Part shown: one piece after another, positions 3,153 to 64,000 of the stretch
Layout of the letters: each line of letters begins with the position of its first letter
Numbering within the stretch: position 1 is the stretch's first letter
From: a virus
Reading direction: 5' to 3' (one strand)
Virus record (IMG/VR): IMGVR_UViG_3300046328_000446
Coordinates: 1-64,000 of that record
Length of the DNA stretch: 64,000 nt
Made by a program: the position numbers and the translations under genes
Notes under the pieces: model-generated
Databases searched by the model: none
What the model saw: only the letters and a program-made list of their open reading frames with translations
What the model was told of the DNA's origin: nothing

Positions 3153-4076
3153 ATGAGATACATATGTGCACAACCAGCCAGCAATTATTATACCTGGCAA
3201 GTAGAAGTACTTATAAACAACTTCAAAAAGCATGGGGTAAACCCTAATAAAATTGACATTCTTTGTGCAACACAAAATAATCACATACCACAAGATTGGA
3301 TAAAACTACAACAGCATTATAACACAGTAAGATTCTTTTTCTATAATGATAGTAGGGCAGATAAGAGCTATGTACCATCAGTGTACTTCAACCTTATGAG
3401 CAGTCACATGAAAGCTCACCCAGAATTAAAAGAAGAGAGATTATTTTTACACGATAGTGATATAGTTTTTACAAGACCACCGGAAGTTCAATGGGTAGTA
3501 GATAAGAAAATATGGTACATGAGTGATACAAACTCATACATAAACTACGACTACATACAACAGAAAGGGAACGAGGTATACGAAAGCATGTGCGAAATAG
3601 TAGGTATAGATAAAACAATACCTAAGCTAATGAATAGTAATTCAGGAGGGGCACAGTATATAATAATTGGTGAGGGATATGAATTTTGGGAAAAAGTAGA
3701 AAAAGACAGTGTAGAACTATACAAATACTTTTGCAAACAAGAACCATTACATGTAAAAAAACACCCTGCTGATTACCCTATACAAAAGTGGACAGCCGGC
3801 ATGTGGTCATTACTTTGGAACGCTTGGCTAAGTGGTCATGAGACAAAGGTAGATCCTAGACTTGACTTTGGATGGACCATACATGGTTTAGAGTCCATTG
3901 ATAAATATTGGATATTACATAATGCAGGTGTTGGACCAGATCATAAAGATCTTTTTTACAAGGCCGCTTATATAAATAAACTACCTTACAAAGATAACTT
4001 ACAAATAAGAGAGAATAGTGCTAGTATGTATTACTGGCAACAAGTACAAGAAGCCGCAAAGGTTTCTGTACTATAA
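3153..4076 (+). CDS. Putative second glycosyltransferase (GT-A-like), 307 aa
   Basis: The protein begins with a beta strand-type N-terminus (RYICAQPASNYYTWQVEVLI) and carries LFLHDSDIVFTRPP (residues 98-110). This is a DxD motif in the hydrophobic context of GT-A transferases that use a UDP-sugar and a metal. The downstream segment KWTAGMWSLLWNAWLSGHET and the Trp/His-rich end resemble large eukaryotic-like peptide O-glycosyltransferases only loosely; I cannot assign a family firmly. It is the last gene of the unit and is followed by two hairpin terminators at 4081-4146. Paired with the preceding GT2-type gene it could extend or initiate O-linked glycans on the Thr-rich virion protein (inference). 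Confidence 0.55.
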   Translation: MRYICAQPASNYYTWQVEVLINNFKKHGVNPNKIDILCATQNNHIPQDWIKLQQHYNTVRFFFYNDSRADKSYVPSVYFNLMSSHMKAHPELKEERLFLHDSDIVFTRPPEVQWVVDKKIWYMSDTNSYINYDYIQQKGNEVYESMCEIVGIDKTIPKLMNSNSGGAQYIIIGEGYEFWEKVEKDSVELYKYFCKQEPLHVKKHPADYPIQKWTAGMWSLLWNAWLSGHETKVDPRLDFGWTIHGLESIDKYWILHNAGVGPDHKDLFYKAAYINKLPYKDNLQIRENSASMYYWQQVQEAAKVSVL

Positions 4077-4080
4077 CGAT

Positions 4081-4109
4081 AAGAGGTTTTTGGTTTTCCT
4101 CTTTTTTCT
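4081..4109 (+). terminator. Rho-independent terminator (first of two)
   Basis: The inverted repeat AAGAGG (4081-4086) / CCTCTT (4098-4103) is followed by a T run. It starts 5 nt after the stop codon of the second glycosyltransferase. Confidence 0.7.
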
Positions 4110-4117
4110 GTTGGGTG

Positions 4118-4146
4118 AGGGGGGGCTTCGGCCCCTCTTCTTTTTT
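4118..4146 (+). terminator. Strong rho-independent terminator with UUCG tetraloop
   Basis: The stem 4118-4126 / 4131-4139 encloses a TTCG tetraloop and contains two G-T pairs. It is followed by TTCTTTTTT. Being so close to the first hairpin, it insulates the ring/muzzle unit from the upstream unit. Confidence 0.85.
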
Positions 4147-4161
4147 AAAATCTTTAACTAA

Positions 4162-4193
4162 TTTGGTAAACACAAAAAATTTTACTAATTTTG
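4162..4193 (+). promoter_or_regulatory. Bacteroidota-type promoter P1
   Basis: TTTG at 4162-4165, a 20-nt spacer, and TAATTTTG at 4186-4193 match the Bacteroidota primary sigma consensus (-33 TTTG, -7 TAnnTTTG). It lies just after the terminator pair and just before the GTG start at 4214. Confidence 0.8.
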
Positions 4194-4213
4194 TAACCTT
4201 AAAACATATAAAA

Positions 4214-4882
4214 GTGACTAATTCAGAATTTACATCAAGAGTACTAAATGGACTAAATTCGTTATCTAAGGATGACAGGATTTCACGTAGATATATACTT
4301 CATGTTGGAAAACAAAAATCAACATTTTATATATCACAAAAGCTTAATGACAGGAGTTTATTTAGAGAAGATAACCTATATACAACACTAGATTGTTTTG
4401 AGCTAGAAAGAATAGAATCAGTAAAATGTGATATCATAGAGTTTAGAAAGTGTAACTCTATAATGAAGTCAAAAAAGAAACTACCTAAACTTATTTACAG
4501 CAGATACGGTAACACTCTTAAAGAGGTTACAACAGTTGACGATGTAAAAGAGTTTAAATCTACTACACCATCACAGTATAGAAGAGATAAAGCTAGGGTT
4601 TCTGGAACAGACTACATAAACTACTACGTAAAAGACGGCTATCTATACTTATTAGATACAGAAATACAAATTGTAAACTTATACCTACTTACAGTAGACC
4701 TAGACCAAATAGATGATGCATCAGCATGCAGCGAACCAGGATGTAAAAGCCTATGGGAATATGATTTTGTAGTCCCAGATAAGTTAGAAGAGCTAATAAT
4801 ATCAGAGACTGTAAAAGAAGTATCTATGAAAAAACAAGTAGCATTAGACGAAAACCCTAATTTAAACAATAACGAGAAGTAA
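4214..4882 (+). CDS. Putative ring/connector structural protein, 222 aa
   Basis: This is the first gene of the unit that contains the muzzle protein. The frame is open from 4115, but that upstream GTG lies inside the terminator and upstream of promoter P1. The GTG at 4214, preceded by AAAACATATAAAA, is the only sensible start and gives VTNSEFTSRVLNGL... . The sequence is a mixed alpha/beta protein with a beta-rich core (residues about 95-160: KLIYSRYGNTLKEVTTVDDV...), a Cys-x3-Cys (CSEPGCKS) near residue 175 and a charged tail. No enzyme motif is visible. In crAss-like phages a set of ring/stabilisation proteins occupies this place before the muzzle gene, so a head-tail ring role is inferred from synteny, not from a recognised fold. 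Confidence 0.5.
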   Translation: MTNSEFTSRVLNGLNSLSKDDRISRRYILHVGKQKSTFYISQKLNDRSLFREDNLYTTLDCFELERIESVKCDIIEFRKCNSIMKSKKKLPKLIYSRYGNTLKEVTTVDDVKEFKSTTPSQYRRDKARVSGTDYINYYVKDGYLYLLDTEIQIVNLYLLTVDLDQIDDASACSEPGCKSLWEYDFVVPDKLEELIISETVKEVSMKKQVALDENPNLNNNEK

Positions 4883-6317: not shown

Positions 6318-9300
6318 ATGGCACAACAACAGAATAAGAAAATAAATTTAAGTTCTGCTAAGACAGGAATGGTGAAGGATACTCATCCGTCACAATTAAC
6401 AGATGCTCAATATACACATGCCTTAAATGCTAACATAGAAAGTGAATCTGGAGACAGTTTTAACCTAACGAATGAGAAATCTAACATACTTGCTTCTAAG
6501 TTTAAAGCAGGTTTTAAAGTTATAGGTTTTGAAAACGACATTGATTCTAACTCTACTTTTTTCTTTTTAACAAATCCCTCTACTGGCGTAGGGGAATTTG
6601 GCGTTATAGAGGATAACCAAAATACTAACGATATATCTGATATCCTGGTTGACTGCAAAGACTGTAATAAAGCAAACCAGTTGGCCGAGCCATTAGAGAA
6701 CTTAGTTCAATTACCACTACAAACATACACAACATTACTTACAGATGCGGATGGATACTTAAACCCAACCACAAATATCTGCATGCCTTTTGTTAAAGGA
6801 TCCGGCTTTAATTTTAGCGTAGATCATCCAATAAAAAAGATAGTTATAAAAAATGAGAAGTGTGGAAAAAATATCTACTTCTCAGATGACTACAATGTAC
6901 CAAGACACATAAACATCACAGATTTATTAGACGGTAAGTACCATGACCAAAACGTACCTTGTAACGACAATGTTACAACCCCTTGTATAAACTATGATGA
7001 ACTAAGAATCTTCAAACTTTTTAACATACCTAAAATTGAACCAGCTACTATAGAGTTAGGTGGTAGATTACCTATGGGTATGTACGAGTTCTTGATAGCT
7101 TACTCAGATGCAGCAGGTAATGAAATATCCCCATACTATTCTATAACAAACCCAATAGCGATATTTGATAAAAACAATAGAATACTAGAGCAAAAGAACT
7201 TAGCTGACAGAACGAACTTAGCTATAAGACTTGTTGTATCAGGATTAGATAAAAAGTACTCTCACTATAAAGTTGCTGTAATACAGACAGCTGACATTGA
7301 GGGGGCTTCTAGATACTTCATAGAGGGGATACACACAATTAATGACAACACTGTAGTTTATACTACTGAGCAAAATAAATTAGCTACAAGCTTTGATAAA
7401 CTACTCATAGACCAACTAAATGTAGAAAGATCAGAAGGACTTACAGCATCAAATAATATACTGTTTCAATACGGTATAACTCAAAAGAAAGAGATAAACT
7501 TACAACCAGTAATGAACTTACTTGGTGAGTTTATGCAATGGCAAACACACATTGCACCAGAAAGCCTATATGAAAATGGAGTACTAAGCTCTAAATTCTT
7601 AGGTTATAATAGAGATGAAGTAGTACCATTTTCAATACGATTTTTATTAGATGGTGGATATGAGACATCTATATTTCCATTGATAAGCAGAAAAATGTTA
7701 TTGTTTGAAGACGAGCTAGTAGTAAATGAAGCTGGAGTCGGCATAAACGATGATATAGAATCTATAATAAAAAACAAGCAAGAGTGTAATACAGTAAATA
7801 GAAACAAAAGATGGCAGTTTTATAACACAGCCTTTTTGGATGATAGTACTGTATGCGAAGGAAATGATAGTATAGAAACAGTAGTAGTTACGGAACCTAT
7901 TACAAAAACTTGCATTGTAGAAGAGGTAGAAACAGTAGCATCAGGTACGATAAGCATCGAACTTGATAACGAAGACTATATAGACTTAGCTCAATACATA
8001 GAAGATAATAAAGGCAATTGTCCATCAGAATTTATAGGTACAGACATATGTGCAGCTTTAGGAGCAGATTACTCTGCTGTAGAGTGCGACATTGATCCGT
8101 TTTTAGATATGGATTGCAGCGATATTACAGTTGTTCCAGAAATAGTTATAGGAGATATAACCAATGAAGTAACAGAGAAAATAGAGAAAATATTCCCTTC
8201 AAACTACGTAGTGGCTAGAGCACCAAAAAATTGTAATGTATACCCAAATAACGACTCAACTCAACCGGCACAGGATCCAAACAACATATTGGGCTATCAG
8301 CCAGGACAGCAAGATCAACCACTAACTGTATATGTAAGGGATTCAGATTTTGAAAATGAAGATTGTGCATATGCAACAGAGATAGTTAACTATACAAATA
8401 CTTCAGATAATCTAAATTTAGGAGCAGTTAATAATTATTATGTAGCATCTTCACAAAACTCCTTACTGACTAGTAAAACACCTGCAGCTTCTGGTATATC
8501 TGGAAACTTCTTAAATAAGATACACAAAGGTGGGCTATGGTTTAAGGGGGATACTGAAGGTAAAAGTAAGTTTATAGTTGACATAAGTAAACAAAAAGTT
8601 ACAGCATATACAGACGACTTAAATTCAGGGTCACAAGTAAGGGTTTCTATATTCAAAAGTTGCTCAGATGCAACAGCTATATACTCAAAGATAGTAGATC
8701 TATCTTCTGGGGAGATGTTGCTTTTTGAAAAAGACGGAACAACTTTAAAAATAAAAGATTCATCAGGCACAGCTATACCACCTATACCTAATGGCTGGCC
8801 TTCAAATAAAAAATACTTTGTAGTAGTAGATGCACCTATCACAACTAGATCTATAGATACAGATCCAGACATGCTTATTACAACACTAGAAACTGTATAC
8901 CTAGTTACCCCAACAAAGAGTTGCTACACAGTTACAAAAAGAGATATAGAGTTTAGCAGAATAGATGTATCTTGGGACGCTATAAGAATAGATAAAAAAT
9001 TAGTATACCAAGCAACTTGTAACTTTAATCAACCAATAGTACAAAGTTGTAAAGCAATACCATTTAAAAAAGGTAATTTTGCGTACTGGGAAAGTGAAGA
9101 AACTTATCCAGACAATCCTGAGTTGTATGACTCAAGAAGTTTATCAATACCTCAAAACTTTATACCAGTTGATTTAAGAAGTGAGTTTGAGGACGCTTTT
9201 GTAAAAAGTATAGCTAATGGTAAATACATACTAAATGATAATGCAAACTTTACTTGTGCCAATATAAGACACTTTAAGTTTCCAGATAATCAATTAGTAC

Positions 9301-31003: not shown

Positions 31004-34000
31004 ATGAGCTTAAAGTGTAGAATTTATAAAGATGAAAATGGGGAGATTGATTTTGTTGAAACTGCCAATGGTAGTAGAAGTAAATTATTTGATACATTAG
31101 TAGATATAACAGGCGGTAATAAAAACACCGCCTTAAATCTTTATGCCTTGACAGAAGTTGAGGATTTTAAAGACATTGCAGCGGCCAAAGTAAACTCTAT
31201 TAAGAATAGAGTAAAAGGTTTAGCAAAAAAAGACAGTTTATCTAATAGTGTTATAGCTCAATATAATAAACTAGAAGACGGATCCACTCCAAAAGACATT
31301 ACAGCTAATATAATAGAGAAACTATCTAACACAGGTTTATCTAATAGTGTTGCAATGCTTAACGGGGCACAAATTGCAAGCAAACTAAGAGAGTTTGGTA
31401 GAGAGAATGTATCAGAGAATACTGCAGGGTTTGTACACAAAGGAAATGTGTATTTAAACTCAGATATTATGGACTTAGATACACCTATCCATGAGTTTGG
31501 CCATATCTATTTAGACTGGTTAAAAACTAATAAGCCTGAACTTTACGAGGCAGGGGCAGCTTTAGTAATTAAGAATAAACAAGAGGCTAAGTCTTATGTA
31601 AACTATGTTAAACAAAATCAACCTAATCTAGTAGAGGGTACTGAGGAGTTTAACAATGAGGTGCTTTCACAAGTTATAGGGGACCAAGGAGCAAAGCTTA
31701 TCAACTCTAAAGTTAGAGGTAGCTTAAAACAATGGTTAAACGATTTATTTGAGGCTATCAAAAATGTACTAGGGCTTTCAGACTATACAGCTAAACAGAT
31801 TTCTTCTATGACATTAGGAGAGTTTGGTAAAGCTGCTGCTACAGACCTATTAACAAAGAAGTTTGAAGGAAGCAGAGACTTTACAGACTCAGACAGCATT
31901 ATGCTATCTGTACTTTCTGACTATAGAGACAATACTAGATTTAAGTTCTCAGATCTTATTTATCCAGACGTTGTTTTTAAAGATGTATCTAGCAAAGCAG
32001 AAACAAAAGTAGCAGTAGATTTCTACAAAAAGATTGTTAGTAAATTCAACAAAACTTTCGACAGAGATTTAAAACTAACCTCATCGAATACAGCAGAAGA
32101 CTTCACAGTAACAGTTGAGTATGAAACAGGGCTTAAACCAAAGTACTTTGCATACCCAACAGCGACTATGGGAGAGCATGCTACAGTGGATAACATAGAC
32201 AAAAATGTACCTTTAACAAGTCTTAGACATGAATTGATACATGAGATGCTTGTTAAGAATATTACAGATAAGTTTGAAAGAATAAACAACCTTGATAATA
32301 GTGCTAACATAGTATCTATAGAGGAGGTACAAAGAAATAGAGCATACAACTACACATTAGAAGATGTGTTCTTTGAAAGAGTTGTAGAGAATGTAGAGAG
32401 AAACCCGGACAACAAAGATACTTTTGAAGTTTCTACTTTTGGTACAGACATCATAAACAGAGTTAAGAAAGAATTAGAAGGGGCTGAGATCACAAAAGAC
32501 AATGTGATAAGCACTTTAGAAGAACTTTTTGATGGAAGTAACCCATGGTTAAAGTCTACAGTACTTGATATTTTTGAGAATAAAGTAGACTATTCTGTAG
32601 AGGACCTTTCTCAACTAAACGAAGAAGTAGGAATAATGTTCAAACAAAGGTTTGATCTTTCTAGAGATATCTTTAGTAAAGAACTACAAAGTAAAATATT
32701 TGACTTTGCTACTTTTTTCAACGAAGAGTATTCAGGGGTTCTTACTAGATTGAATAAAATAGAAAAAAGAAATAAACTTACTAGGGTAGTTCCTGGTAAT
32801 ACATTATTTGTAGAGAGTTTGCCGGCTGCTACAACTATAGCAAATGCTTACAAGAGGGATATGGGGATACCTTTATCAGAGACTCGTAAGATAGAAATGC
32901 TAGACATAGACAACAGCAAAAAAATAGCTCAAGAATTTGAGAGCATGGTAGACGAAAGAGGTAACCTAAGCTCTGAAACAAAAGAGGCTTACGATGCTTT
33001 AATAACAGAAACTTTAGCACAGTATGAAAAGATACTAGACTATGGTTATGTTATGGAGATCAATAATGATGAGCCCTATTCAAGTTCTAAAGAGATGATA
33101 GAAGACCTACGTGATAACAAACGTATGAAAGTATTTTCTACAGAGTCAGGATTTGGAGTAGGGGGAATAACAGCTGCTGAAAAAGCAAGTGACCCTAGAC
33201 TTGAAACTACAAAGTTTACAGATGTAAATGGATACCCTTTATTATTTAATGACGTATTCAGATTTGTACATGACTTTTTTGGACACGCTAAATTAGGAAA
33301 TGGATTTGGTGCGATAGGTGAAGAGAATGCTTGGAATGTACATTACGAGATGTACTCTCCAAAAGCTAAGAGAGCGATGACAACTGAGACAAGAGGTCAA
33401 AATTCTTGGGTTAATTTCTCAGGAGTTAATGATGAAGCTTTTGCTCTTAGAGATCAAGCTAGAAAGCTTAGAAAAGAGGGTAAATTGGAAGAAGCAAATG
33501 CTATCACTAGTCAAGTATACGATATGATGAAGTTTGCAGATCAAAAGCTAGGTCTTATGCCTATGTGGGTATCAAAAGCAAACTACACATCTCTAGAAGA
33601 TAGAAGATCAATAGAAGTTGATGGAAGCAAGATATTCTTCAGAAACCAAATCAACCCTATAACAGGGGAAGCTACAGGTAAAGTAGAGATGGAGTTGATA
33701 GAGACACCAGTAGAGCTAAGAGGCCAAGGTAAAGCAAGAGAGACGTTCAAAACAGCTTTAAGATATACAGACTCTTTAGGAAAAGATACAGTCTTAACAA
33801 TAGCAAGTAGAGATAAATTTACTACAGATGCCGGACTAGAGAGATTCTATTCATCATTAGGTTACTCTAAGACATCGGACTTTGAAATGGAGAGAAAGGC
33901 TAAGCCAGTTCTTCCTGCAAGCTATGATGATAATGGAGAGCCTGGAGTTAAGGATTTGATGGAGTACATAAACTCTACTAGCACATCTGAAAAGTTATCA

Positions 34001-63356: not shown

Positions 63357-63497
63357 TAAAAGAGGAAGGAATCGAACCTTCGATGTTAACTACATACTTA
63401 ATCACTTACCATGCTTTACCTAGTATATTGGGCAGTAATATTAAGTCATCATTAATCCCACTCACAGTTCAGGGGCGACCTTATCTGCTACTCTTCC
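63357..63497 (-). tRNA. tRNA-like gene with a large internal insertion (identity unknown)
   Basis: The 3' part is a good tRNA end: T stem GAAGG/CCTTC with loop TTCGATT, then CTCTTTT and discriminator A (63357). A matching acceptor 5' strand GGAAGAG lies at 63497-63491 (seven pairs including two G-T), directly after a leader hairpin like those of the other two tRNAs. The span is 141 nt, about 65 more than a normal tRNA. A possible anticodon stem ACTGT/GTAGT flanks the extra sequence, which folds into its own hairpins. It may be a degenerate tRNA, an intron-bearing one or a tRNA mimic. I cannot name an anticodon. Confidence 0.4.
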
Positions 63498-63500
63498 ATT

Positions 63501-63516
63501 TGATGTCTTTCCATCA
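63501..63516 (-). other. Leader hairpin 3 nt upstream of the tRNA-like gene
   Basis: TGATG-GAAAGA-CATCA on the - strand, followed by AAT and then the acceptor GGAAGAG. It has the same loop and flanking sequence as the hairpin at 63667-63684. Confidence 0.65.
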
Positions 63517-63559
63517 GTCAACATTGTGAAATTCTGGGGCACGTTGCTCATAACCATTG

Positions 63560-63662
63560 TTGTCAGGACAGGTCTCGAACCTGTATGAGATGGTCAAAGC
63601 TCTCGCTGCATCTTACGGGGAGTTTTGAGGACTCCTGCGTCTACCAATTCCGCCACCTGACA
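63560..63662 (-). tRNA. Type II tRNA, Leu-like body, anticodon reads UCA by position
   Basis: The acceptor TGTCAGG/CCTGACA is perfect. The D arm GGCGGAATTGGTAGACGC is the classic tRNA-Leu form, and the T arm is ACAGG-TTCGAGA-CCTGT. The anticodon arm is GGAGT-CCTCAAA-ACTCC, placing UCA at 34-36, which would read UGA stop codons. Position 33 is then C instead of U. A CAA (Leu) reading would restore U33 but break the stem. The variable region is 34 nt with an AGATG/CATCT stem, unusually long, giving 103 nt in total. No CCA is encoded. Identity is uncertain: suppressor-type or a distorted tRNA-Leu. Confidence 0.7.
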
Positions 63663-63666
63663 ATTT

Positions 63667-63684
63667 TGATAGTCTTTCCTATCA
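63667..63684 (-). other. Leader hairpin 4 nt upstream of the type II tRNA
   Basis: TGATAG-GAAAGA-CTATCA on the - strand, then AAAT, then the mature tRNA 5' end. It is nearly identical in form to the hairpin at 63501-63516. Confidence 0.65.
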
Positions 63685-63809
63685 GTCACTCGTTAGATTT
63701 TGCTCTCTGGACTATATGAGTTAGCCCCGTTAACCGTAAGCATTTCGGCCCGTCTGCAACTTAACATAAACCTGTGACGAGTATTCCTTATCGTTTATGC
63801 CTTGCTAAG
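63685..63809 (-). ncRNA. Structured spacer RNA between two tRNA genes
   Basis: This 125-nt spacer has higher G+C than most of the window and several complementary segments: CATAAAC/GTTTATG (7 bp), ACTCGT near its 5' side with ACGAGT near its 3' side, and CCG/CGG around a small loop. There is no open reading frame or tRNA arm. It could be a processed precursor segment or a small RNA; I recognise no family. Confidence 0.35.
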
Positions 63810-63883
63810 TGGACCAAGTATGACTCGAACATACGACCTTTGCATTATGAGTGCACTGCTCTAACCAACTGAGCTATAAGTCC
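63810..63883 (-). tRNA. tRNA-Met (CAU)
   Basis: The cloverleaf is clear: acceptor GGACTTA/TTGGTCC (one T-T mismatch), D arm GCTC-AGTTGGTTA-GAGC, anticodon loop CTCATAA, and T arm GTATG-TTCGAGT-CATAC. One mismatch lies at the base of the anticodon stem. The discriminator is A and CCA is not encoded. A CAU anticodon can also belong to a lysidine-modified tRNA-Ile, which sequence alone cannot exclude. Confidence 0.85.
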
Positions 63884-63886
63884 AAT

Positions 63887-63908
63887 TTAGGGGATTTCGC
63901 TCCCCTAA
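63887..63908 (-). other. Leader hairpin 3 nt upstream of tRNA-Met
   Basis: An 8-bp stem TTAGGGGA/TCCCCTAA closed by a GCGAAA loop, followed by ATT and the mature 5' end. It is the third example of a hairpin at this exact place. The remaining sequence to 64000 has further pairing (TGCAAA/TTTGCA at about 63921-63937) but no gene that I can support. Confidence 0.65.
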
Positions 63909-64000
63909 GGCGTGTTAGGCTGCAAATCTTTTTTGCACCCCACCAAGTGTGTAAACGTTGTCGTTTAGTTTTGAAATTAATTCTCCCTATTACCTACTTA

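Follow-up and report, generated by a model that had tools for sequence, protein, structure and literature searches.

Two hairpins of a non-coding RNA cluster on a phage contig are copies of one general phage RNA motif, U-G-R-C-A-[4 bp]-G-GAAAGA-C-[4 bp], an assignment that is strongly supported. The motif is a phage-specific, cis-acting element with a stem that covaries at the RNA level; it lies in long untranslated RNAs, and about one third of its copies are tied to tRNA 5' ends. This small element, UGRC followed by a short stem with a GAAAGA cap, has apparently not been described so far. From comparison of sequences we suggest, with a probability of roughly 0.4, that it is a hairpin with a boundary or processing role in long untranslated phage RNAs and would be read by a conserved host factor.

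Non-coding RNA cluster of the phage contig

The window, the 64,000-nt stretch of DNA analyzed here, makes up nearly the whole of a 64,018-base virus record and carries phage genes for ribonucleotide reductase, DNA polymerase, helicase and thymidylate synthase. A minus-strand non-coding cluster starts beyond the window end and finishes shortly before the ribonucleotide reductase beta gene. It continues on a near-identical contig, L032, which agrees with the window at 980/980 positions of the overlap. The order of elements in the direction of transcription is a permuted tmRNA, the third hairpin, 3 nt, tRNA-Met, 1 nt, a conserved RNA termed block A, TGAC with hairpin 2, 4 nt, a Leu-like tRNA, about 40 nt, TGAC with hairpin 1, 3 nt, and a 140-nt tRNA-like RNA.

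All three hairpins proposed by the initial annotation are present where it placed them, on the minus strand, and its linkers of 3–4 nt to the next RNA measure 3 nt (63498–63500), 4 nt (63663–63666) and 3 nt (63884–63886). Hairpins 1 and 2 have, as claimed, a common loop (GAAAGA) and flank (TGAC). Motif copy 1 (63501–63520, minus strand) consists of TGAC at 63517–63520 and TGATG-GAAAGA-CATCA at 63501–63516; it precedes the 140-nt tRNA-like RNA. Motif copy 2 (63667–63688, minus strand; 32.9 bits, E 3.6e-6) consists of TGAC at 63685–63688 and TGATAG-GAAAGA-CTATCA at 63667–63684, ahead of the Leu-like tRNA. Extending the search past position 64000, as had been advised, uncovered in L032 an additional tRNA-like gene of 156 nt, located upstream of the permuted tmRNA and with a different hairpin of its own, CCCCC-ACAT-GGGGG, 4 nt ahead of the gene. 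The claim that a hairpin stands before each tRNA of the cluster thus holds for four of four tRNA-like genes of the extended cluster, but the shared motif is found in only two of them, and the third hairpin belongs to the tmRNA.

The tRNA-Met (CAT anticodon; 63809–63883, minus strand) scores 64.9 bits. The Leu-like tRNA with a long variable arm (63560–63662, minus strand) reaches 44.3 bits with permissive filters and is not called by ARAGORN. Its anticodon register is ambiguous, either CAA or TCA, because the anticodon stem GGAGT/ACTCC leaves the loop CCTCAAA. The 140-nt RNA (63358–63497, minus strand) has a 7-bp acceptor GGAAGAG/CTCTTTT, a T-arm GAAGG-TTCGATT-CCTTC and a long interior; neither ARAGORN nor Rfam gives a tRNA call for it. 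Its homologues occur in L002, L003, L004/L087, L135 and L155, and the unusual interior of this family contains the conserved sequences AGGTCGCYCC and GAGTGGG. The remaining motif-preceded tRNA-like genes vary in length from 60 to more than 300 nt.

Structure and covariation of the hairpin motif

The motif is 22 nt long, with about 14 conserved bases. Its layout is a helix, UGRC, A, a short covarying stem with a G-C closing pair, the loop GAAAGA (at times GAGAGA), A, and then 2 to 5 nt before the next RNA. The stem was assessed by three non-circular tests, based on stems that had never been queried, on a pattern with a free pair together with a stem-broken control, and on a flank-free pattern. 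At TGRC-N5-GGAAAGAC sites with never-queried stems, all four stem positions are paired in 45 of 53 cases, compared with about 2% expected. The pattern TGACAGCCNGGAAAGACNGGC matched at least 120 stretches of viral contigs; its free pair N-N' is complementary in 115 of the 115 distinct copies among the matches listed (GC 70, CG 27, TA 13, AT 3, TG 2), and the stem-broken control gave 0 matches in viral contigs. With the flank-free pattern GCCNGGAAAGACNGGC, 94 of 99 sites are paired among the matches listed, and the flank is recovered at frequencies of 80% for T, 94% for G, 97% for R, 95% for C and 79% for A. In an alignment of 50 variants, four of the five pairs show changes on both sides; since its rows were picked as paired, the alignment is an illustration and not a test.

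Further copies in the fetched loci have other stems, nearly always behind TGAC or TGGC, and no conserved sequence was found upstream of TGAC. Rfam 15 covariance models gave no match for the motif; what they returned was tRNA or tmRNA, apart from weak, unrelated matches below the cut-off. A literature search, in which subscription papers and preprints were thinly covered, did not find a description of it; large phage-RNA catalogues may list the motif.

In the crAss-like phage cr128_1 (L189), the variant TGAC-TGATAG-GAATAGA-CTATCA is located a few bases ahead of a tRNA-Arg (record positions 7173–7195), and the loop may accordingly be longer in some copies, GA(N)AGA.

Distribution of the motif

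The motif is carried by hundreds of unrelated phages with a GC content of 33–68%. Whole records have one to four copies, mostly close together. The TGAT-form pattern TGACTGATN{0,3}GGAAAGACN{0,3}ATCA was found in at least 119 stretches of viral contigs; the same pattern matched 11 times in 257 Gb of bacterial and archaeal genome sequence, where we estimate about 8 by chance. In a further scan of 394 bacterial genomes from two families, the 14-base pattern TGACANNNNGGAAAGACNNNNA gave 7 matches and its reversed control 8. The motif therefore lies outside normal bacterial tRNA operons, in agreement with the initial annotation, and a leader element of bacterial tRNA operons was rejected as a candidate identity.

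Among lambdoid phages, the P22 and HK97 types have a single weaker copy, and strong copies occur in phages of Pseudomonas, Stenotrophomonas and Cronobacter. P22, HK022 and mEpX2 each contain one imperfectly flanked copy between the lysis genes and terS; the membership of P22 and HK022 is uncertain because these copies score below the model threshold.

Strong covariation in hundreds of phages, with essentially no copies in bacterial chromosomes, suggests a shared and so far unrecognized step of phage RNA metabolism. The motif could serve as a marker for phage tRNA-like and leader RNAs that are odd and still unannotated, and it can be tested in laboratory phages that carry copies.

Genomic context of motif copies

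An acceptor and a T-arm follow the motif in 82 of 275 distinct copies, 72 of them at a distance of 3–6 nt, compared with 2.6% at random places; as most loci were picked by the motif itself, these context proportions are not population estimates. The same hairpins precede tRNAs in relatives, where the initial annotation had advised looking for them, and in unrelated phages as well, for example as four motif–tRNA-like cassettes within 1.3 kb in L200. Canonical tRNAs of relatives, such as the tRNA-Arg of L004, are without the motif. No tRNA is detectable directly behind about 70% of the copies, and many copies sit in the leader of an early or late phage operon, ahead of a start codon or a terminator, and some in leaders of tRNA arrays. 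The motif is thus not tRNA-specific, and its proposed role as a signal particular to tRNA precursors is not supported in that form.

Copies in untranslated leaders were observed in mEp390 and an E. coli prophage (after the repressor), in ESP2949-1 (before terS), in Medea1, in Pokken (at the start of a tRNA array), in an elemovirus and in MinM2. Separately, leaders of E. coli lambdoid prophages (L383, L384, L382, L315) comprise about 0.8–1 kb of repeated structured modules (ACAACATGAAAGCGC...GCGCTTTCAGTTGT), some with a tRNA-Arg inside.

The orientation of the motif follows transcription. ARAGORN tRNAs within 1.5 kb of a copy number 193 on the same strand and 0 on the opposite strand, compared with 44 of 127 opposite in random windows. 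Of 187 ORFs that come next after a copy, 159 share the strand of the motif and 28 are opposite. The ORF gap holding the motif has a median of 806 nt, against 42 nt for all gaps. Structured RNA abuts the motif on both sides. Among 220 copies, 59 have a perfect 5-bp upstream helix whose last base directly adjoins the T of TGRC, where the baseline is about 24; 6-bp helices starting 2 to 5 nt past the motif are likewise far over baseline. The downstream peak comes mainly from tRNA-like genes, whereas the upstream peak comes from copies both with and without a tRNA; for the latter the downstream signal is weak (17 of 167 versus about 8).

Possible functions of the motif

A boundary or processing role is our first choice because the linker is short and fixed and helices abut the motif on both sides. 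The motif would mark where one structured RNA ends and its neighbor begins within a long untranslated phage transcript. Its UGRC/GAAAGA surface could be recognized by a conserved host factor, which would guide cleavage to the A/U-rich linker or else protect the junction; the RNA downstream (a tRNA, a tmRNA, a leader domain or an mRNA) would thereby be set free or fold alone. A broader proposal, to which we give a little less than even odds, is that of a universal phage signal: the motif would be selected in phages of Bacteroidota, Gammaproteobacteria, cyanobacteria and others, and whenever long untranslated RNA is made, tRNA arrays and tmRNA included, it may engage a component that all of these hosts share, such as RNA polymerase, Rho/Nus or an RNase.

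Several points speak against a boundary role: the weak downstream helix signal in copies without a tRNA, the canonical tRNAs of relatives that are without the motif, and the one-per-genome copies in early leaders beside cI/cro, which look equally like nut or put sites. We do not separate this role firmly from an antitermination-like one, in which the nascent motif, often with the upstream helix, would bind to RNA polymerase or to some Nus/Rho component to enable run-through of untranslated RNA and terminators, in the manner of put or nut sites. Antitermination is the main rival, less probable in our estimate and ranked a close second because the leaders adjoin cI/cro and terminators are enriched downstream. 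Copies occupy untranslated leaders of 400–1000 nt by cI/cro-type genes or before terS, and the ORF gaps at the motif are long. Terminator-like sites within 100 nt of the motif are found downstream in 15 of 252 cases, compared with 4 upstream, 2 antisense and 1.7% at random. In BUCT709, the copies lie after cro-type genes, and a terminator is flanked by two copies on each side ahead of the early operon. On the other hand, antitermination leaves the fixed spacing of 3–6 nt to tRNA 5' ends unexplained, and in Alexa two copies lie in a stretch without a downstream gene on that strand.

Two known systems bear on antitermination. Protein-bound hairpins of the lambda boxB/nut type are short, with a conserved purine loop and a variable stem, and lie in phage leaders; the motif shares these features but has a different loop, a conserved 5' UGRC and tRNA adjacency. 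The putRNA of phage HK022 is an antiterminator RNA (PMC9378689). Like the motif, put is a cis-acting phage RNA with adjacent stem-loops in early-operon leaders and requires no known phage protein. It differs in length (about 70 nt against 22 nt) and in its conserved bases, and the motif also occurs at tRNA 5' ends; put has two long bulged stems and antiterminates without a protein factor, by way of the beta' zinc-binding domain. The early region of HK022, the site of put, has no GGAAAGAC, which also counts against antitermination, and the only HK022 copy is in the late region. A 41-nt stretch shared on opposite strands, probably put, is without the motif. Identity with put RNA was rejected since the motif is missing from the HK022 early region.

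A passive stabilizer or insulator, which would cap the processed 5' end or block invasion of the next fold by the leader, with a loop reflecting mere stability, is improbable. It would agree with the median closing-pair probability of 0.99 in a 400-nt context and with the unrelated hairpins that occupy the same place before two neighboring RNAs of the cluster, but it has no need to keep UGRC, GAAAGA and the G-C closing pair while the stems vary freely.

It is very unlikely that the motif is all or part of a self-cleaving ribozyme releasing the downstream RNA. A small conserved core, phage specificity and a hairpin beside an RNA end would suit a ribozyme, as would the start of block A at a tRNA 3' end and the precedent of the theta (HDV-like) ribozymes of gut phages, which are located at the 3' ends of tRNAs and have a presumed role in maturation (PMC10879173). 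Both theta ribozymes and the motif are phage RNA elements immediately beside tRNA genes. However, theta ribozymes have an HDV fold and follow tRNAs, whereas the motif hairpin precedes 5' ends and matches no Rfam ribozyme model; its conserved bases number only about 14, and the sequence upstream is not conserved. No HDV-type Rfam match was found in the window cluster.

Least probable, and already weakened, is a DNA-level element such as an HUH-nuclease hairpin, a recombination site or another DNA signal: REP/IS200-type elements likewise combine a hairpin with four conserved bases at its foot, but the strand of the motif follows transcription (tRNAs 193:0, ORFs 159:28) and its stems differ even inside one genome. 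An intrinsic terminator was rejected, as the window linkers read AAAT and AAT and a T at +1 is absent from two thirds of the copies.

Block A, a conserved pseudoknotted RNA

Block A is a 119-nt RNA (63689–63807, minus strand) that begins 1 nt past the tRNA-Met 3' end and runs up to the TGAC of motif copy 2. It is found in the same position in 13 other phage loci, among them L159, L160, L162, L164 and L154, and the TGAC hairpins behind it have several different stems. Of the loci fetched by its own interior sequence and not by the hairpin, nearly all have block A beginning at the 3' end of a tRNA. Its pseudoknot is formed by two covarying crossing helices, with seven pairs changed on both sides. 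In L162, the hairpin behind block A precedes an apparent tmRNA 5' end, as read from the sequence. Block A has no Rfam match, and a group I intron or known ribozyme was rejected, without Rfam support, for both block A and the hairpin.

Permuted tmRNA and the third hairpin

The 3' (coding) part of the permuted tmRNA occupies 63915–64000 on the minus strand, with a tag frame, NDNVYTLGGVQKRFAA and a stop codon, read from the sequence; the 5' part lies past the window end. In L032, the tmRNA_permuted model RF04321 matches positions 4028–4289 with 51.1 bits, a region that includes the third hairpin. Permuted acceptor and coding pieces and the tag frame are all present, and this assignment applies to the third hairpin only; the motif as a part of tmRNA was rejected for hairpins 1 and 2.

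The third hairpin, TTAGGGGA-GCGAAA-TCCCCTAA (63887–63908, minus strand), is located 6 nt after the tag stop codon. Its stem covaries in the relatives L002–L005 (TAGGGAGA/TCTCCCTA, TAGGGGGA/TCCCCCTA, TGAGGAGA/TCTCCTCA). It belongs, as a separate element, to the coding piece of the tmRNA and has no relation to the UGRC/GAAAGA motif; as the end of that piece, it may fill the motif's spatial role in the window cluster.

Other copies of RF04321 are located beside the tRNA cluster in L002 (3452–3717), L003 (3682–3944) and L004 (2607–2867). Permuted and contiguous tmRNAs alternate within one phage group, since L036 has a contiguous form near the same place (RF00023, 93.7 bits).

In L002 (about 3830–4260), tRNA-Met and block A are separated by an ORF resembling an HNH-type endonuclease, which is missing in L003 and L004. 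Upstream of the cluster, L002, L003, L005 and L036 have a long conserved untranslated RNA (about 2.1–4.1 kb) with common stretches such as AACTACGTGACCCTACTCTT, in which no Rfam match was reported. An extra motif copy, TGGC-AGTTCG-GAGAGA-CGAACT, is found in L476, a contig of L032, at 31932–31953, about 25 nt ahead of an ORF start; its orthologue in L036 has the loop GAAAGA and a compensating stem change.
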